Below, piece by piece: positions 4,473 to 11,594 of a stretch of 21,860 bases of DNA. Every line of letters starts with the position of its first letter. Positions within the stretch are counted from its first letter, which is position 1. A program made the position numbers and the translations under genes. This stretch comes from a virus. The notes beneath the pieces were generated by a model. That model was given only the letters and a program-made list of their open reading frames with translations, was not told the DNA's origin and did not search any database. Location of the stretch: the IMG/VR virus record IMGVR_UViG_3300017783_000246, positions 1 through 21,860 of that record; one strand, written 5' to 3'.

Positions 4473-4723
4473 TGGCTGAATATCAAGGAAAAAAAGTAAC
4501 TCTTAATAAGCCAACCCAAGGAGATATAAAAAAATTTAAGGTTTTTGTCCGAGATCCTAGTACCGGAAGGGTAAAGAAAATTAATTTCGGAGCTAAAGGA
4601 ATGTCCATTAAGAAAAATAACCCGGATAGAAAGAAAAGTTATTGCGCTAGAAGTGGTGGAATAAAGAACAAGAACAATAAGCTCTCAGCAAACTATTGGT
4701 CAAGAAGAGCTTGGAATTGCTAA
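4472..4723 (+). CDS. Small basic phage protein (DUF5754-like)
   Basis: 83 residues, strongly basic. It has Gly-Lys-Lys-Val near the start, then Lys-Lys-Ile-Asn-Phe-Gly, a Pro-Asp-Arg-Lys-Lys-Ser stretch with a following Ala-Arg, and a C-terminal Asn-Tyr-Trp-Ser-Arg-Arg-Ala-Trp. This pattern is familiar from small proteins of cyanophages and other marine phages, assigned from memory to DUF5754. No function is known. It is the first of four tiny basic genes joined head to tail. The start is coupled to the holin through TAATG. Confidence 0.75.
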   Translation: MAEYQGKKVTLNKPTQGDIKKFKVFVRDPSTGRVKKINFGAKGMSIKKNNPDRKKSYCARSGGIKNKNNKLSANYWSRRAWNC

Positions 4724-5712: not shown

Positions 5713-5748
5713 AATTGTAATATAACGAAAAGATATTATAGATTAGTT

Positions 5749-5794
5749 GCCGGGATTTTCTCCGTTGTTTTGCTACTTTGGATTTGATCCCGGC
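5749..5794. repeat. Inverted repeat enclosing a leader-element copy; possible terminator
   Basis: GCCGGGAT (5749-5756) and ATCCCGGC (5787-5794) are perfect 8-base arms around a 30-base loop. The loop holds a 19-base copy of the element found at the 5' ends of two leftward operons. It lies between convergent genes (rightward stop at 5712, leftward stop at 5801), so it may end transcripts from both sides. No long T-run follows either arm, and the loop is long for a factor-independent terminator. Confidence 0.45.
5757..5775 (-). repeat. Leader element copy 1 (orphan, in hairpin loop)
   Basis: On the minus strand this reads TAGCAAAACAACGGAGAAA, identical over 19 bases to the copies at 6394 and 10488. 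Unlike them it is not followed by a start codon: the downstream bases enter the hairpin arm. Confidence 0.8.
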
Positions 5795-5800
5795 CTTTAC

Positions 5801-5899
5801 TTATTTGTTAGATAAAGCCTCAATAACAAGCTTCATTACTATTAGAAAACCGCCTATCATAAATATGTGAGCGAACGTATATAGTACTAGATTTAACAT
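5801..5899 (-). CDS. 32-residue single-pass membrane protein
   Basis: The product starts Met-Leu-Asn-Leu-Val-Leu-Tyr and is hydrophobic over residues 2-27, with a short polar tail (Ser-Asn-Lys). It is one transmembrane helix. The start shares TAATG with the stop of the upstream leftward gene, and GGGGG lies about 7 bases before it, so translation is likely. It forms a two-gene operon with the 163-residue gene. Tiny membrane proteins in this accessory position are often involved in superinfection exclusion or host modification, but here that is inference only. Confidence 0.6.
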   Translation of the reverse strand: MLNLVLYTFAHIFMIGGFLIVMKLVIEALSNK

Positions 5900-6390
5900 T
5901 AATAGCCCCCATGATTTATTGTACTTGGGTGGCCATTCTCAAAAGCTTCCATAGCATAATCACGACTAGACGATTGAGATTCTAAATATTCTTCCCTAGA
6001 AATAAAATCTACATACAGATTGTACCCGCTATCAATATCTCTAGGCTTAAAATATTCGAGTAATTCGTCTTTGTGGTAACTCCACCAAAAAGAAAAACCG
6101 GTATTATACTTTTCTGGCCAACTAGATTCAGCATGATCTACATAATCATACTCTCTTCTGATAATATAAATCGGGAAGGTAAATAAAGCATATTTGAAAA
6201 AGGTTTTAATGTAGTAAGTAAGAAAACGAACATATCCATAAAACCTTCTTAAAAACTTAGGTAGTTTAAGAGTCTTAATTGTAGATAGTTCAAAAATTTT
6301 AATTGCTACAATAAAAGCATTTGTTACAGGAACTAAAGTAAAACTAAGTTTTTTGTTAAAGTATTCGTATTGTATTGGTGTTGTAAACAT
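5899..6390 (-). CDS. Unknown protein, accessory (moron-like) position
   Basis: 163 residues, rich in Tyr, Phe, Lys and Ile. Hydrophobic stretches at about 22-35 and 64-78 may be membrane-associated. The second half is soluble and acidic, with Trp-Trp-Ser-Tyr-His-Lys near residue 103 and a Ser-rich stretch before the end. No family is recognised. The ATG follows the repeated leader element directly (CGGAGAAAGAT before ATG), so the start is firm. It lies between lysis genes and integrase and is read against the late operon, where lysogenic-conversion genes often sit. Confidence 0.7.
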   Translation of the reverse strand: MFTTPIQYEYFNKKLSFTLVPVTNAFIVAIKIFELSTIKTLKLPKFLRRFYGYVRFLTYYIKTFFKYALFTFPIYIIRREYDYVDHAESSWPEKYNTGFSFWWSYHKDELLEYFKPRDIDSGYNLYVDFISREEYLESQSSSRDYAMEAFENGHPSTINHGGY

Positions 6391-6393
6391 ATC

Positions 6394-6414
6394 TTTCTCC
6401 GTTGTTTTGCTAAG
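6394..6414 (-). repeat. Leader element copy 2, ribosome-binding site of the 163-residue gene
   Basis: On the minus strand it reads AGCAAAACAACGGAGAAA, preceded by CTT, and lies 3 bases before the ATG at 6390. The GGAG inside it is the ribosome-binding site. It is identical over 21 bases to the copy at 10488. Confidence 0.85.
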
Positions 6415-6664
6415 AAGAAAGTATCAAATTTTCACAAAAAGTAACGTTTTTTTTTGACACAAATTTACACAAAACGTTCTAGAATTATTGATTATGAGGG
6501 GTAACGCATTATTACCAAGACTGTGAAACCCTTGATTTTTGGAAATAATAGCGTGAAATGTGTCTTTTTTTGACACACTATGTTTCAATATTTCTCGTTA
6601 TTTCTCAATACTTTTTTTAAAGTGTTACCTACTGTGTAATAAAAATTGACACACTTTTGACACA
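6415..6664. promoter_or_regulatory. Non-coding repeat region beside attP
   Basis: About 250 bases without a gene. It holds four TTGACACA boxes (6454, 6570, 6646, 6657; the last two form an 11-base tandem TTGACACACTT/TTGACACACTA), an inverted pair TGTGTC/GACACA around a T-run (6559-6577), GGTAA-N7-TTACC (6500-6516) and GTTACC (6624-6629). It should contain the leftward promoter for the gene starting at 6390 and may hold the integrase arm sites. I cannot point to a convincing -10/-35 pair. Confidence 0.5.
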
Positions 6665-6668
6665 CTAT
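6454..6668 (+). repeat. Four TTGACACA direct repeats, candidate integrase arm-type sites
   Basis: TTGACACA occurs at 6454-6461, 6570-6577, 6646-6653 and 6657-6664, all in the same orientation. The copies at 6570 and 6657 extend to TTGACACACTAT. They lie 250-460 bases from the tRNA/integrase junction, as expected for arm sites of a lambda-type tyrosine integrase. TTGACA also matches a -35 box, so some may be promoter parts instead. Confidence 0.5.
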
Positions 6669-6832
6669 AGAGATCTTCTAATGTAGTTGGGGAGACGTCC
6701 TTCTTCTTTGTAAGTGTGATATGCAGACACCCAATCTTTTTTGTATTCATTCTTTAAAAAGCTTACTAGAGCTTTATCTACATTTGGTTCAGTACTAAAC
6801 AGATTTATAAAAGTTTTAAAAATTTTTGACAT
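6665..6832 (-). CDS. 55-residue basic protein
   Basis: The frame runs from an ATG preceded by AAAGGAAATTGCC, a good ribosome-binding site, to a TAG inside the last TTGACACA repeat. The product is helical and basic: Ser-Lys-Ile-Phe-Lys at the start, Lys-Asn-Glu-Tyr-Lys-Lys-Asp-Trp near residue 30, and Tyr-Ile-Arg-Arg-Ser-Leu at the end. It lies between the tRNA and the repeat region, inside the probable attP arm. No family is recognised. A DNA-binding accessory or regulatory role would fit the place but is inference. Confidence 0.6.
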   Translation of the reverse strand: MSKIFKTFINLFSTEPNVDKALVSFLKNEYKKDWVSAYHTYKEEGRLPNYIRRSL

Positions 6833-6909
6833 GGCAATTTCCTTTCAAAAGATATTTTACCAGACAGTCTATTGAAATTTAGTATGTTACTTTTACAAAG
6901 GTGATGTGT

Positions 6910-6984
6910 TGGTGCTGGTGAGAAGAATCGAACTTCCTACTCCGTCCTTACCAAGGACGTACTCTACCAATGAGTTACACCAGC
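6910..6984 (-). tRNA. tRNA-Thr (anticodon GGT), complete with CCA; candidate attP core
   Basis: Read on the minus strand, a full cloverleaf forms: acceptor arms GCTGGTG/CACCAGC, D-stem ACTC/GAGT with GG in a 7-base loop, anticodon stem CGTCC/GGACG with loop TTGGTAA (anticodon GGT, Thr), a 5-base variable loop, T-stem GGAAG/CTTCT with loop TTCGATT, discriminator A and an encoded CCA. All stems pair, with one G-T. Its first base adjoins the integrase stop codon. Tyrosine integrases commonly target tRNA genes, so this is probably the attachment core, either phage-carried or formed at an integration junction. Confidence 0.93.
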
Positions 6985-7923
6985 TTATAAGTTTTTAATG
7001 ACTGAAGCTTTCCTTGTATCAACAACTTTGGCATAACGCAAAGCCATTTTCTCAGAACTCCACCCCCCTAAACTCATCAAAGTTTTTATATCAGAATTTT
7101 TTAAGACTCTTGTGGCAAACGTATGACGAAACTTATGGGGATTAGATTTTATCCCGGAGAGCTTTTCCATTCTTCTCCAAGAGCTTTTGATTCCATGTCT
7201 TGTATTATAAGTGAAGACTTTTCCTTTACCTTGATGTAGGCCCAATTCTTTTTTTAATTTAGGATTGATATAAATGTATTTATATTTTTTTGTCTTGCTC
7301 ATAAAAACGGAAATTAAATTCTCTTCATAATCAATATCTGTCCAATCTAAATTAACAGCTTCAGAAATACGACACCCGGTATAGTATAAGAATGAGATTA
7401 GTTTTCTTACTTTTCCAGAATGTCTAAGTAATATTTCAAATTCTTTTTCATTATGCCAAGTGATCTTAGTTTCATCTACAGAAAATTTATTCAATTTAAT
7501 AGGTTGAACATTTAGCTTTATCATTTGTAAGTTGATCATAGCTTGTACTAAATTAATTATTTTATTAACAGAACTATTCTTTATTCCGGGAGTTAAACAG
7601 AACTTGATATGATCACTAAAGGTTGGCTTTATAGTGTCTATGAAAGTATGACCAAAATCATCAGTTATTTTCCTGAGTTGGGTTATGATATTGATATGAA
7701 GATCTTTTACATCAATGTAGTCTTCTAAAGACTCTTGTAAAGTTGGCCAATGTTTCTTCTCACCAGCCAACTTATCGTAATATAAGTTTTCAATTCTTTT
7801 TAATACTATCTCAGCTTCTTTTTTGCCTTTGCAACCTGTGGATTGGCGAATGCGTTTTCCGCCAATGGTTGTTCCTTCGATTTGCCAATAGGAGCTTTTT
7901 TCTCTCTTTTTGAGTTTAAGCAT
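6985..7923 (-). CDS. int: Tyrosine-type site-specific integrase
   Basis: 312 residues. The N-terminal part (1-60) is the arm-binding/AP2-like domain with Ser-Tyr-Trp and Gly-Lys-Arg-Ile-Arg-Gln-Ser-Thr-Gly. The core-binding domain is at about 65-150 and the catalytic domain follows. Catalytic residues are visible: R185 (Thr-Gly-Cys-Arg), K210 as the probable beta-turn Lys, H263 and R266 (His-Lys-Phe-Arg), W288 in the His/Trp place, and the nucleophile Y297 (Leu-Arg-Tyr). It inserts and, with an excisionase, removes the phage genome. The stop abuts a tRNA-Thr, its likely target. Its start lies 118 bases inside the upstream excisionase-like gene. Confidence 0.95.
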   Translation of the reverse strand: MLKLKKREKSSYWQIEGTTIGGKRIRQSTGCKGKKEAEIVLKRIENLYYDKLAGEKKHWPTLQESLEDYIDVKDLHINIITQLRKITDDFGHTFIDTIKPTFSDHIKFCLTPGIKNSSVNKIINLVQAMINLQMIKLNVQPIKLNKFSVDETKITWHNEKEFEILLRHSGKVRKLISFLYYTGCRISEAVNLDWTDIDYEENLISVFMSKTKKYKYIYINPKLKKELGLHQGKGKVFTYNTRHGIKSSWRRMEKLSGIKSNPHKFRHTFATRVLKNSDIKTLMSLGGWSSEKMALRYAKVVDTRKASVIKNL

Positions 7924-8105
7924 TCTATTATCTTGTCTATATGACCTTGTGAAAATCTCAAGCGAAAAGGTACCCGCACGAAGAACTGTTCTTGTGGATA
8001 TTCTTCCTTCAATGTATTTAGCATTGAATAAACAGTCTTTTTAGAGACACCAAAGCTATTAGCTACGTCAGTGATAGTAAAAAGAAAATTAGATTGTTGA
8101 GACAT
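7806..8105 (-). CDS. Excisionase-like helix-turn-helix protein
   Basis: 99 residues. The HTH is at about 10-32 (Phe-Thr-Ile-Thr-Asp-Val-Ala-Asn-Ser-Phe-Gly-Val-Ser-Lys-Lys-Thr-Val-Tyr), of the MerR/excisionase type. A wing-like segment (Phe-Arg-Leu-Arg-Phe) and a Lys-rich tail follow. Position directly before int, with a 118-base overlap, supports an excisionase or directionality factor; a regulator of int is the alternative. The ATG shares TGATG with the preceding stop. A TTG one codon upstream lies closer to the GGGGG ribosome-binding site and could be used instead. Confidence 0.7.
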   Translation of the reverse strand: MSQQSNFLFTITDVANSFGVSKKTVYSMLNTLKEEYPQEQFFVRVPFRLRFSQGHIDKIIECLNSKREKKAPIGKSKEQPLAENAFANPQVAKAKKKLR

Positions 8106-8458
8106 CAATACAATTTACCCCCTGATACTGCTAGTTTGTTTAATGAGAATTGAGCCATAAGCTTATATTCTAAAGTTTTCATATCTATAGAAAGACTATT
8201 TGCTTCTTCTTTTGCTTTTTTAGTCTGCTCTGTAGCTATTTTATAGTCTTCAGAAGCTAACGCTTGTATCTCAGATTGAGAAACATTATGGCCACCACCA
8301 ATCAAATCTTTTTTCTTTTCATTAAAAATTATTTTCATGGACTGTTCTTTAAACCAAGCTTCAGCATTTTTTGTAGCATGTCTTTGTCCAGCTTCATGAT
8401 ATTTATAAATCATCTTATCAATATCACTCCCTAGCTCTAACAGCTCTTGCCTATTCAT
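8105..8458 (-). CDS. Helical protein of unknown function
   Basis: 117 residues, almost all alpha-helical and highly charged, with a His/Gly-rich short loop (Gly-Gly-Gly-His-Asn) near residue 55 and a C-terminal Gly-Gly-Lys-Leu-Tyr. Small helical proteins of this kind often stand next to RecB-type nucleases and SSB-like genes in phage recombination operons, so a recombination accessory role is possible. No domain is recognised. It overlaps the upstream gene by 8 bases and is joined to the excisionase-like gene through TGATG. Confidence 0.7.
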   Translation of the reverse strand: MNRQELLELGSDIDKMIYKYHEAGQRHATKNAEAWFKEQSMKIIFNEKKKDLIGGGHNVSQSEIQALASEDYKIATEQTKKAKEEANSLSIDMKTLEYKLMAQFSLNKLAVSGGKLY

Positions 8459-8660
8459 TGATCAACCTATAAACACCGTAACTAGAACCTGTTTTTGGGT
8501 GAACCTTTCTTATCGTTTCAATAGGTATATTTTTGTCTCTTAGATCTTTTATTCGAGCTGATAAACGATAACTGCCAAACTCTTTCCAAGATGTAATCGG
8601 ATCTAATACTTTACCAGACTTCAAATACTCTAAGATCATTTCACATTGTGTTCTACTCAT
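8451..8660 (-). CDS. Small helix-turn-helix protein (HTH_39-like)
   Basis: 69 residues. The pattern Gln-Cys-Glu-Met-Ile-Leu-Glu-Tyr-Leu, Ser-Trp-Lys-Glu-Phe-Gly, Tyr-Arg-Leu-Ser-Ala-Arg-Ile-Lys-Asp-Leu-Arg and a final Gly-Val-Tyr-Arg-Leu matches the helix-turn-helix family HTH_39 (PF14090), common in phage early operons. It probably binds DNA; its target is unknown. It overlaps both neighbours by 8 bases (ATGA..TAG type), so it is translated as part of the leftward operon. Confidence 0.8.
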   Translation of the reverse strand: MSRTQCEMILEYLKSGKVLDPITSWKEFGSYRLSARIKDLRDKNIPIETIRKVHPKTGSSYGVYRLINE

Positions 8661-9018
8661 CTTTGATACCTAACCTATCTAATGTTTGTTGATATAACTT
8701 CTTAGCCATTTCAAAAGGATCTCGGAAACAACAATTTTCCCAGAACCAATCTTCAGATCTATTAGGCTGGTGTAATAACGTATGACAGTCATGACACAGC
8801 GGTACAGTAAATTCGTCTGATACCCTAGATCCCATAGATTTTAAATGACCCGGTTTTTTCTTTCTCACATGATGAGCTTGTACGCCCTGATCACTACCAC
8901 AAGCCATACAAGGTTGAGTTCTTATAAAGCCTAGATGAACTTCAGATCTATACTTTCTAGCTCCACTCTTCATCAGGTTGATCATGTACGACTTGTCCGT
9001 CATTACTGTATTCAGCAT
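8653..9018 (-). CDS. HNH-type nuclease (DUF968/NinG-like recombination endonuclease)
   Basis: 121 residues. Zinc and catalytic residues are C37-x2-C40, His-His at 49-50, C75-x2-C78-H79 and H83, the layout of a zinc-supported HNH fold. Ser-Asp-Glu-Phe-Thr-Val-Pro-Leu-Cys is typical of DUF968-like proteins in phage recombination modules, which are thought to resolve branched DNA. The start at 9018 is supported by AAGGGAG about 8 bases upstream, although it overlaps the preceding gene by 62 bases. A packaging-associated HNH nuclease is less likely, because it lies in the early operon. Confidence 0.85.
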   Translation of the reverse strand: MLNTVMTDKSYMINLMKSGARKYRSEVHLGFIRTQPCMACGSDQGVQAHHVRKKKPGHLKSMGSRVSDEFTVPLCHDCHTLLHQPNRSEDWFWENCCFRDPFEMAKKLYQQTLDRLGIKDE

Positions 9019-9403
9019 TTTGATTTCTCCCTTCTGGCCATGATTGGCTAATGTTTGGAATAGAATTACCTAAGCTCTTTGGCTCGTTATTTTGATAATT
9101 ACCACGATTGTAATTTTGATTATTATTGTAATTATTATTGTTATATTCTTTTTTCTCTACCTTTGGTGGTTGAGGATTAGCTTGAAAATAACTTGTTAAA
9201 TTACCTTTTAGCTTTTCGTCTGGAATAGCTAACATAAACCTTTGACCCGGTTGTAGTTGGACATTGTTGTTAAAGGTTCCAGATAAAAATAATCCGTACT
9301 TACCTTCTTTGTGCCAAACTCCCCCAGCATCAAATGATTTACCATTTTGATCTTGTATCTTTATTCTAAAGTGTGGTCTTAGACCTTTGTCGTTGTTTTG
9401 CAT
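8957..9403 (-). CDS. SSB-like protein with Asn-rich linker and acidic tail (tentative)
   Basis: 148 residues. Residues 10-75 look like a small beta-barrel (Phe-Arg-Ile-Lys-Ile, Gly-Val-Trp, Tyr-Gly-Leu-Phe-Leu-Ser-Gly-Thr, Phe-Met-Leu-Ala-Ile), compatible with an OB fold. Residues 86-107 are nearly all Asn, Tyr, Gln and Gly, and the last residues are acidic (Asp-Glu-Glu-Trp-Ser). A barrel, a disordered linker and an acidic tip is the plan of single-strand DNA-binding proteins, and the neighbours are nucleases. The canonical SSB tip is not present, so the assignment is by architecture only. AAGGA precedes the ATG. Confidence 0.6.
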   Translation of the reverse strand: MQNNDKGLRPHFRIKIQDQNGKSFDAGGVWHKEGKYGLFLSGTFNNNVQLQPGQRFMLAIPDEKLKGNLTSYFQANPQPPKVEKKEYNNNNYNNNQNYNRGNYQNNEPKSLGNSIPNISQSWPEGRNQNAEYSNDGQVVHDQPDEEWS

Positions 9404-9405
9404 TT

Positions 9406-9525
9406 TTATTTTTTCCTTTTTTTGTTTTTGTTTTTTTTTGCCAATCTCTTCATTTTGGCAACTCCAGATAATTTCTTATTGGAATTTTTTTGTATTTTTG
9501 TTTCTATTACTCCTAAGTGCGCCAT
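9406..9525 (-). CDS. 39-residue Lys-rich protein
   Basis: The ATG shares TAATG with the stop of the nuclease gene and has GAGGGA about 6 bases upstream. The stop lies two bases before the next ATG. The product has 13 Lys and 2 Arg in 39 residues, with a Lys/Asn/Arg-only C-terminus. The exact fit between two genes and the good ribosome-binding site make it a likely gene rather than a gap. It may bind DNA or the SSB-like neighbour's acidic tail; that is speculation. Confidence 0.6.
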   Translation of the reverse strand: MAHLGVIETKIQKNSNKKLSGVAKMKRLAKKNKNKKRKK

Positions 9526-10412
9526 TAAGATTCCCTCGATTTCTCTCTATTAAATTGATTACATAATCCGGATTTGCCGACATCGCAGTAAAGACCACAT
9601 CTCATAGATGTTCCATTTCGATACCAACGAGTTTCTTCAGAACAAACAGGCTCGGTAGCATCTTTTTCATTTTGACCAAGTGCCATAAGTTGATGTTCTG
9701 ATACTTTATCCGCAAGATGTTTTTCGATTATATCTTTTGGAAGTAAAGGCAACGGCTCTTCGAAAAATTCACTCTTTGGATAATTATTTATCTCTTGTGA
9801 TTTTCTATGAGTCCAATGCCTACAATAGATAAGCAAAGACAGATCGTGGACGTTATATCCACCTTGCTCGAACGCATAACGATAAGCCTGTAGTTGCCAA
9901 AAGTATTTATGTTTAGGTAACTTACCTTTTTTCTTAAATACTCTGATTTCTCGAAGAACGGTCTCCATTTGGAATGCTGAAGTAGATTTCCAATCTCTAA
10001 TAATGATGTCTTTGTTCGTAAATTTATCATTATCAAATCCAAGATATTGAATTAAGTCAGCACGACCAGATATTGTCCAAGTTCCATAATTACCTTTCAC
10101 TTTAAAAAAGGTTGGAACCTCTCGCTCAAACTTCCCCCGGGGAAAGTATTTTAAGAAGAATTGCTCAAATGATTGTCCAATAACAATCGGAATCAAATCC
10201 GTAGTTTTCTTTTCAATCTCAATATTTCTTAATCGATTTTTTTTATAAACAAGTGGAGCATCTTCTAACAAGTCAGATAAGTTCATATCTGAAGTCAAAG
10301 TTTGAGTCTTTTTTCTTGCTAAATATTCTTCATCTTGTTCACGCTGAACAGATTTAATTAAATAATTAATTATATCTGATTGATTCGGGTCATCTAGAAG
10401 TATCGTCTTCAT
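9525..10412 (-). CDS. PD-(D/E)XK nuclease, RecB/Cas4-like, with four C-terminal Cys
   Basis: 295 residues. The nuclease motifs are E83 in a helix, Gly-Arg-Ala-Asp (D119), Asp-Trp-Lys (D140, K142) and Gln-x3-Tyr (Q173, Y177), the last being the extra motif of RecB-type exonucleases. Four Cys (247, 262, 266, 274) near the end could hold an iron-sulfur cluster or zinc, as in Cas4 or AddB. It probably resects double-stranded DNA for phage recombination or replication. No CRISPR locus is near. AAGGG precedes the ATG; a 24-codon ORF ends inside its start codon. Confidence 0.85.
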   Translation of the reverse strand: MKTILLDDPNQSDIINYLIKSVQREQDEEYLARKKTQTLTSDMNLSDLLEDAPLVYKKNRLRNIEIEKKTTDLIPIVIGQSFEQFFLKYFPRGKFEREVPTFFKVKGNYGTWTISGRADLIQYLGFDNDKFTNKDIIIRDWKSTSAFQMETVLREIRVFKKKGKLPKHKYFWQLQAYRYAFEQGGYNVHDLSLLIYCRHWTHRKSQEINNYPKSEFFEEPLPLLPKDIIEKHLADKVSEHQLMALGQNEKDATEPVCSEETRWYRNGTSMRCGLYCDVGKSGLCNQFNREKSRES

Positions 10413-10483
10413 AGAATAACCCTTTGTTTAAAAAGCCTAGATATACTTATACATCTGGGTGGCTCACCCGCATTTATTGCCAT
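10409..10483 (-). CDS. 24-residue leader ORF upstream of the nuclease
   Basis: The frame begins 4 bases after leader-element copy 3, whose GGAG is its ribosome-binding site, and ends with TGA overlapping the nuclease ATG (ATGA). The product is Met-Ala-Ile-Asn-Ala-Gly-Glu-Pro-Pro-Arg... with an Arg/Lys-rich end. It may serve mainly to couple translation of the leftward operon, like a leader peptide. No homologue is recognised, and its function as a protein is doubtful. Confidence 0.5.
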   Translation of the reverse strand: MAINAGEPPRCISISRLFKQRVIL

Positions 10484-10487
10484 ATGT

Positions 10488-10508
10488 TTTCTCCGTTGTT
10501 TTGCTAAG
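10488..10508 (-). repeat. Leader element copy 3, at the head of the leftward early operon
   Basis: Identical over 21 bases to copy 2 (minus strand AGCAAAACAACGGAGAAA preceded by CTT). It supplies the ribosome-binding site of the 24-codon ORF that opens the nuclease-integrase operon. Confidence 0.85.
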
Positions 10509-10689: not shown

Positions 10690-11439
10690 TTAAGAATGGT
10701 CAGGCTGATTATAAACCTGATCGTGTAAAGAATTTGTTCTTGATGACTTAAATGTATTCGGTGCAAAAATAGCTTCTACAGCAAACCATTCAATTACATC
10801 TTTTATATCTACTTTGACTTCGGTTTTTGTAACCTCATCAAGACATGAAACTATTTTTTTTTCAGGATAAAATTTAACATTACAAAATACAAATATCTCT
10901 TTACTTTCTTTATTATTTTTAGTCTTGCATTTATATTTTAATATTGAGTAAAGATACTGATTACTTACGGATTCCGGGTTTTTTTTGAAATTATTAGTGG
11001 GGTCAAATAAACATTGATAATTATAGATTGGATCGTGTCTAACTATAATACAGTTATATCCTCTCCAAATATTTGATCTTAAAACTGTATTTGGATCAGA
11101 CATTCTAGGGGCATAAATCATGCCATATTCGTTCGATATTCCTACTACAGGAACTGTAAGTGTTGTATCAAATTGCCTATTTAAAAGACTACTTCGAGAA
11201 GAATGATAGATATCAACATTAAAATATCTTAATAATTTATTTAGGGATTCTACTGAAATATCACTTTGAGTATGTATAAACTTAGATACTACTGAAGGTG
11301 ATAAGCCAACAATTTTGCAAATCTGGTTCCATGATTTTCGAGAGTCATGTTGTTTTGATACTAAGATCTGAATTAATTTTTTTTTACCGTTCACTATATC
11401 CCCTAAATAATTATCCCATAAAGTTACACTATTTCTCAT
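10690..11439 (-). CDS. CI-type repressor (HTH plus S24-like domain lacking clear protease residues)
   Basis: 249 residues from the ATG; a TTG three codons upstream is the alternative, and neither has a strong ribosome-binding site. The HTH is at about 36-72 (Trp-Asn-Gln-Ile-Cys-Lys-Ile-Val-Gly-Leu-Ser-Pro-Ser-Val-Val-Ser-Lys-Phe). After a linker, Val-Pro-Val-Val-Gly begins a domain resembling the C-terminal part of CI/LexA-type repressors, but the usual catalytic Ser context and later Lys are not evident. It lies between divergent operons, so it most likely holds lysogeny. How it would be inactivated is unclear. Confidence 0.8.
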   Translation of the reverse strand: MRNSVTLWDNYLGDIVNGKKKLIQILVSKQHDSRKSWNQICKIVGLSPSVVSKFIHTQSDISVESLNKLLRYFNVDIYHSSRSSLLNRQFDTTLTVPVVGISNEYGMIYAPRMSDPNTVLRSNIWRGYNCIIVRHDPIYNYQCLFDPTNNFKKNPESVSNQYLYSILKYKCKTKNNKESKEIFVFCNVKFYPEKKIVSCLDEVTKTEVKVDIKDVIEWFAVEAIFAPNTFKSSRTNSLHDQVYNQPDHS

Positions 11440-11594
11440 AGCGTTCAACCATTTCTTTGTAGAAAAATTAAGCTATTGAAAAAAAAATCAAAATAAATTT
11501 AATAAAATCATGGAAAGCAAGTTACCCAATTTATCCTCCGCTAGCTTTCCATTATTACGCTTAATGTCATGTCGTCCGAAAGGGGAGACACCTA
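11440..11594. promoter_or_regulatory. Divergent control region with candidate rightward promoter
   Basis: This region separates the leftward repressor from the rightward early genes. TTGAAA (11476-11481), a 16-base spacer and TTTAAT (11498-11503) form the best rightward promoter in the window (5 of 6 matches in each box). The expected transcript start falls at the hairpin beginning at 11510. The repressor's own leftward promoter should also be here but is not clear. AGGGGAG near 11582-11587 is the ribosome-binding site for the TTG start at 11595. Confidence 0.5.
11510..11552. repeat. 9-bp perfect inverted repeat downstream of the rightward promoter
   Basis: ATGGAAAGC (11510-11518) and GCTTTCCAT (11544-11552) flank a 25-base loop that contains GTTACC. 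It would form a hairpin at the very start of the rightward transcript, or two half-sites of an operator. No T-run follows, so it is not a standard terminator. Confidence 0.6.

Follow-up and report, generated by a model that had tools for sequence, protein, structure and literature searches.

Translation-blocking antisense RNAs of phages are known mostly as one RNA acting against one target. The c4 RNA of phages P1 and P7 pairs through its loops with mRNA of the same phage around the ribosome-binding site (RBS) and prevents its translation, and the two phages show c4-dependent heteroimmunity; the sar RNA of P22 and the OOP RNA of lambda are small antisense RNAs that control early or immunity genes of the phage that encodes them, each through one target (ant in P22, cII in lambda); and VpdS of phage VP882 and PreS of lambda are phage-encoded, Hfq-dependent, trans-acting small RNAs (sRNAs) reported to act on host mRNAs and, in the case of VpdS, also on phage mRNAs (PMC12197685). 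RNAIII of Staphylococcus aureus is introduced in a further account as a regulatory RNA that arrests mRNA translation by pairing (PMC2837412). Here, we describe a stretch of 21,860 nucleotides (nt) of virus DNA from IMG/VR record IMGVR_UViG_3300017783_000246 (the window, in which positions are numbered), where a hairpin carries in its loop the antisense of an extended RBS element that serves as the leader of two leftward genes. We consider it likely that the phage encodes in it an antisense RNA of one hairpin, which acts in trans to keep a dedicated group of genes of the same phage from being translated.

Three exact copies of the element AGCAAAACAACGGAGAAA are present, and the minus strand carries all of them (5757-5774, 6394-6411 and 10488-10505); no further copy was found in the window with up to 3 mismatches allowed. 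Shuffled sequences contained 0.03 matches on average, and three matches were not reached in any of 100 shuffles. The copies at 6394-6414 and 10488-10508 agree over 21 nt, and end 3 and 4 nt ahead of the ATG of a 163-amino-acid open reading frame (ORF; 5899-6390) and a 24-amino-acid ORF (10409-10483), respectively; the copy at 5757-5775 shares 19 nt with them and is not followed by a start codon. An earlier note on this DNA had reported these three copies and had described two of them as leader and RBS, and both observations are borne out. The same note regarded the third copy as an orphan, a description that does not hold, as the copy occupies the loop between the arms of a perfect 8-bp inverted repeat, GCCGGGAT (5749-5756) and ATCCCGGC (5787-5794), the antisense strand of which is the proposed regulator.

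Read on the plus strand, the hairpin (5749-5794) has a stem GCCGGGAU/AUCCCGGC and a 30-nt loop, and folds at -24.5 kcal/mol with a z-score of -4.84; none of 200 shuffles was equally stable, and the stem pairing is kept in the related contigs L016 and L017. The loop segment UUUCUCCGUUGUUUUGCUA (5757-5775, plus strand) is the exact 19-nt antisense of both leader elements, with a predicted loop:leader duplex of about -32 kcal/mol. An Rfam scan of the hairpin matched no family, c4-like RNAs included, either at the gathering score or at E-values up to 10. A first reading of the hairpin as a plain terminator between convergent genes was given up, since its loop matches the leaders, a U-tract is missing and a second group of phages has its hairpin in a different place.

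In relatives, loop and leaders change together. The group 1 relatives are IMG/VR contigs from metagenomes, and all of the comparative evidence is sequence. Three loop alleles were distinguished, UAGCAAAACAACGGAGAAA (allele a), UAACCAAACAACGGAGAAA (allele b) and UAACAACACACAAAAGGAGA (allele c). On contigs long enough to include the leaders, each allele fits two or three of them in its own genome, and the 19-nt copy sits exactly in the loop of every relative that spans the site. Allele a, that of the window, is present in three contigs (L005, L008/L014 and L009). Allele b occurs in loop and leaders of L016, with one exact leader and one bearing a single C-to-T change, and of L108, with one exact leader. 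Loops of the UAACAACACACAAAAGGAGA type are found in L017, L018, L020, L110 and L112; in L017 and L020 the loop fits three leaders, which precede the initial ORF of the exonuclease operon, the SSB gene and the final leftward gene. The stem also changes yet still pairs, an A-U pair of allele a being U-A in b and G-C in c. Cognate loop:leader duplexes have calculated energies of about -28 to -32 kcal/mol; when allele c is paired with a or b, the values are -12 to -17 kcal/mol; alleles a and b, two bases apart, cross-pair at -22 to -27 kcal/mol. The three counted loop-target differences inside the tag, as we call the shared leader sequence, are all G-U compatible with an antisense RNA, which is suggestive (P 0.02-0.16, depending on the mutation model). 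Conservation upstream of the GGAG core persists in related phages, and the covariation shows that the sequence itself matters.

The interpretations offered in the earlier note are supported in part. Its proposal that the copies are a common signal through which a protein or an RNA controls translation is supported in the RNA form. Its other suggestion, a recently duplicated expression cassette, fares poorly: only 19-21 nt are held in common, and the shared sequence has been replaced in concert in other lineages. The note had further pointed to a match at the start codon of the SSB-like gene as possibly due to chance. This 11-nt match (9391-9401) is real but disrupted in L014, where the loop is unchanged; we rejected it as a third target in the window, coincidence being probable for allele a.

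A comparable arrangement was found at a different locus in group 2, defined as contigs whose large terminase (TerL) is about 70% identical to that of the window. Several small leftward genes in these genomes (1-5 per contig) have AAAGCGAG or AAAGAGAG, that is AAAG(C/A)GAG, as the RBS core, and a hairpin elsewhere in the genome presents a loop antisense to this octamer. The stems are several unrelated sequences (GCCCTCA, GGCCTATG, AGGCGTTG, ATGCCAAG, AGCCCTGA and AAAACCCTAGA). The targets follow the hairpin allele: C-type genomes have 32 C and 6 A targets, A-type genomes 3 C and 11 A (Fisher, 5e-5), and permuting the hairpin alleles over the 12 genomes gave P 0.004, close to the lowest value that three A-type genomes allow. 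The loop of L081 departs from its targets at one A/G, tolerated by a G-U pair. The group 2 hairpin lies after the stop codon of a rightward gene, within a rightward operon and beyond the end of the leftward genes. The terminase tree scatters the A-type phages and disagrees with the tree of the hairpin-linked gene (L070, L101 and L047 versus L037, L055 and others), and the hairpin and its neighbouring gene therefore probably move as a module between phage backbones. Both complementarity to several mRNAs encoded elsewhere (two to three leaders per genome in group 1, one to five in group 2) and loop/target covariation across relatives, as would be expected of a trans-acting antisense sRNA, are thus present, the latter with exceptions that we set out below.

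Just upstream of the hairpin, the plus strand of the window carries a sigma-70-like promoter signal, TTGTAA..TATAGA/TAGATT (5715-5744), in the top 2.3% of window positions. On the antisense strand, nine lineages that are not fully independent of one another have a -35/-10 pair whose end lies 3-7 nt upstream of the stem (Fisher combined P 1.5e-8); on the sense strand of the same lineages no promoter-like signal toward the hairpin was found (P 0.8). The -10 hexamer alone, scored by distance, gave no clean peak, whereas the joint -35/-10 score gave one. We favour the antisense strand as the RNA because of the group 2 placement, this promoter signal, the G-U compatible differences and function, since a loop of this sense would mask the Shine-Dalgarno sequence and the sequence upstream of it at once. 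Many sRNAs are processed out of longer transcripts, and it is possible that the hairpin RNA is likewise cut from a longer one.

Complementarity, hairpin, joint change of loop and target across lineages and conserved promoter-like signals can all be read from the sequences directly. From them we infer a mechanism in which the RNA would be transcribed, would bind its leaders directly and would repress rather than activate them. A short antisense RNA, essentially one hairpin, would be read rightward from the junction of the rightward genes and the leftward early genes. Its loop would pair with the whole 19-21-nt leaders of the exonuclease/SSB/HNH/excisionase/integrase operon and of a variable accessory gene at the far end. 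First contact would be made through the sequence upstream of the Shine-Dalgarno core, the phage-specific part thus serving for recognition, after which the CUCC part would mask GGAG and keep ribosomes from starting. Initiation would be blocked at the first gene of the exonuclease run and at the accessory gene, and coupled downstream genes would follow; as the leaders share a common sequence tag, one RNA could repress the whole set. As to timing, the RNA may shut off the early genes late, once rightward transcription is under way. It may also confer immunity in the lysogen, in which case the loop alleles would be immunity types as in c4 of P1/P7.

More tentatively, and with somewhat less than even confidence, we suggest that the hairpin and its leaders form a swappable 'lock and key' regulon, in which a hairpin key and genome-specific leader tags as locks are replaced as a set. 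Each phage would thereby have its own immunity or shut-off specificity, accessory genes would join by acquiring the tag, and two phage groups would have such systems at different loci with unrelated sequences. The systems of the two groups may or may not be of common origin.

A number of observations weigh against the antisense RNA. A strict consensus promoter scan found nothing at 5715-5744; the signal in the window is weak by its rank, and allele c ranks lower still (top 11%). The group 2 signal coincides with the last part of a coding gene, and could owe its conservation to the protein encoded there. No good or consistent U-tract follows the stem to mark a 3' end. In the tree of the hairpin-adjacent gene the A-type genomes form one clade, so that the C/A change of the hairpin is one event, along with which several target genes changed. 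When the C/A switch was followed orthologue by orthologue, two families switched cleanly and one did not, and A-type genomes retain some C-type targets. L078 keeps the hairpin (4535-4600, loop UUUAUUCGCUUUC), but its leftward genes use ordinary AAGGAGATAAATA (GGAG) leaders; a decayed system and other targets are both possible readings. Finally, all relatives are metagenomic contigs, and a generic hairpin/RBS scan was negative in eight isolate phages, which thus lack it.

Searches beyond these contigs returned little. The phage isolate collection contained no near match, no relative of the HTH protein and no close relative of the exonuclease, and its TerL relatives were below 50% identity. The genome collection had no exonuclease relatives, and five TerL relatives in metagenome-assembled genomes showed no convincing hairpin. 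The lone match in HTVC106P in the generic scan was judged to be chance, and the many matches in Rhodoferax phage P26218 to be noise of a GC-rich genome. Exact-pattern matches in viral contigs L001-L004, L006, L007 and L010 were lone copies in unrelated context without a hairpin, and were set aside.

The element could instead be bound by a protein of phage or host origin, either a translational repressor or a DNA-binding regulator, with the hairpin copy as an extra site or decoy and the lineages differing through changed protein specificity. The copies are, after all, equally identical in sense and antisense, the element at 10488-10508 and 6394-6414 lies near the presumed transcript start, and candidate regulators are present, for example an HTH protein (10690-11448). 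We nevertheless think this explanation unlikely: allele c places a site at the internal RBS of the SSB gene, with no promoter next to it, and group 2 places sites at gene after gene; the element is swapped wholesale between phages whose HTH protein remains about 70% identical; and the copy is always in the loop of a maintained hairpin, with loop-target differences that are G-U compatible. Rather less probable again is that the hairpin is a 3'-end structure on the leftward mRNA that displays a copy of the RBS and sponges another RNA or ribosomes. The group 1 hairpin does stand directly behind the last leftward genes, whose transcripts may include it; that of group 2, however, is inside a rightward operon past the end of the leftward genes, and the sense strand has neither a promoter signal toward the hairpin nor a U-tract.

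RBS sequences are often reused by phages, and the most ordinary account would be that an extended Shine-Dalgarno sequence is favoured and was copied to several genes, and that a terminator hairpin unrelated to it came to contain a copy accidentally or through gene conversion. In an unrelated phage contig, AACAACTAACGAAAGG recurs ahead of several genes and no hairpin to match it was found, and L078 is one case, as this account would predict, of a loop that drifts without a change in the leaders. Chance or conversion is nevertheless hard to reconcile with the presence of the 19-nt copy precisely at the loop of each relative that covers the site, with concerted replacement in at least three alleles and with the analogous arrangement at another locus in group 2, and we regard this account as highly improbable. 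As a separate observation, a long RBS, AACAACTAACGAAAGGAAA, is reused before several genes in the unrelated contigs L003 (minus strand, 10962, 12305 and 14120) and L006 (3871, 7029 and 7522), where no matching hairpin was found.

If the antisense RNA is accepted, its targets are as follows. The element at 10488-10508 (minus strand, exact match) is the leader and RBS of an operon running from exonuclease, SSB and HNH genes to xis and int, and its counterpart is kept in L014-L021 and L102, each with the allele of its own lineage. Directly behind it, on the minus strand, lies the 24-amino-acid ORF (10409-10483), the stop of which overlaps the ATG of a PD-(D/E)XK exonuclease-like gene (9525-10412; phrog_2139, E 1.4e-11; Pfam PDDEXK_1). 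There follows a 148-amino-acid SSB-like gene (8957-9403, minus strand), which matched no PHROGs or Pfam family and whose allele c counterpart has the full element at its RBS. This leftward run closes with genes for an excisionase-like protein and a tyrosine integrase (6985-8108, minus strand; phrog_66 and phrog_1). A complete tRNA-Thr (GGU) gene lies directly behind the integrase stop (6910-6984) and is likely to be the attachment site; tRNA genes are found in the same place in L016 and L017. In the allele c contigs (L017, 5270-5310, and others), the leader of the first exonuclease-operon ORF can fold a TCTCCTT..AAGGAGA hairpin that exposes the tag, which suggests a kissing-loop target.

The other target element (6394-6414, minus strand, exact match) is the leader and RBS of the 163-amino-acid ORF (5899-6390, minus strand), whose product had no match in PHROGs or Pfam. 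In L014, L016, L108, L017, L018 and L020 this slot carries the allele of its own genome although the gene behind it differs, with 163, 32, 159, 227, 91 or 80 amino acids according to the phage, and the tag of the genome's own hairpin is retained; in the 80-amino-acid case there are two differences inside the tag, both G-U compatible. The tagged leader is thus kept at a slot whose gene is variable or missing (window 5899-6390; counterparts in L008, L016, L017, L018 and L108, with 163, 159, 227, 91 or 80 amino acids or none), and we read the slot as an accessory-gene position that would be wired into the regulon. A 32-amino-acid putative membrane peptide (5801-5899, minus strand) stands directly behind the element in L008/L014. 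With alleles a and c, such a tiny putative membrane peptide (about 28-32 amino acids; L017, 9494-9580) is the last or near-last leftward ORF ahead of the hairpin. Several GTTTTTTTTTGACACA- or TTGACACA-like repeats lie at 6446-6675, upstream of the leader of the 163-amino-acid gene, and are possible operators for a repressor.

If the proposal is correct, an RNA-based regulon and a possible immunity determinant would be present in uncultured, mostly marine phages. The system would offer naturally orthogonal RNA/RBS pairs, as well as a rule for finding others, namely a hairpin loop antisense to a repeated extended RBS. The literature on pelagiphage small RNAs yielded nothing relevant, and the design was undescribed in the broader literature covered, which excludes subscription papers and most bioRxiv preprints, so that its novelty is provisional.

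RNAIII offers a general parallel, as its C-rich hairpin loops face Shine-Dalgarno sequences. It is, however, a bacterial virulence regulator, whereas the complementarity in the window is nearly perfect over 19-21 nt and specific to the leader tag of each phage. For VpdS and PreS, no comparable covarying tag is described in PMC12197685. Unlike sar and OOP with their single targets, the RNA of the window would act at a distance on several leaders sharing a tag. The nearest precedent in logic is c4, since the window loop is likewise antisense to RBSs that the phage itself encodes. However, c4 has one target, ant, while the window hairpin faces two to three leaders (one to five in group 2) in separate places, and these belong to the exonuclease/int operon and the 163-amino-acid gene, not to an antirepressor. 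The window hairpin, which has no Rfam match to c4, is also encoded by the opposite strand and may be transcribed from a promoter of its own. Several tagged targets per hairpin, coding on the opposite strand and recurrent placement together set this design apart from c4, sar and OOP.

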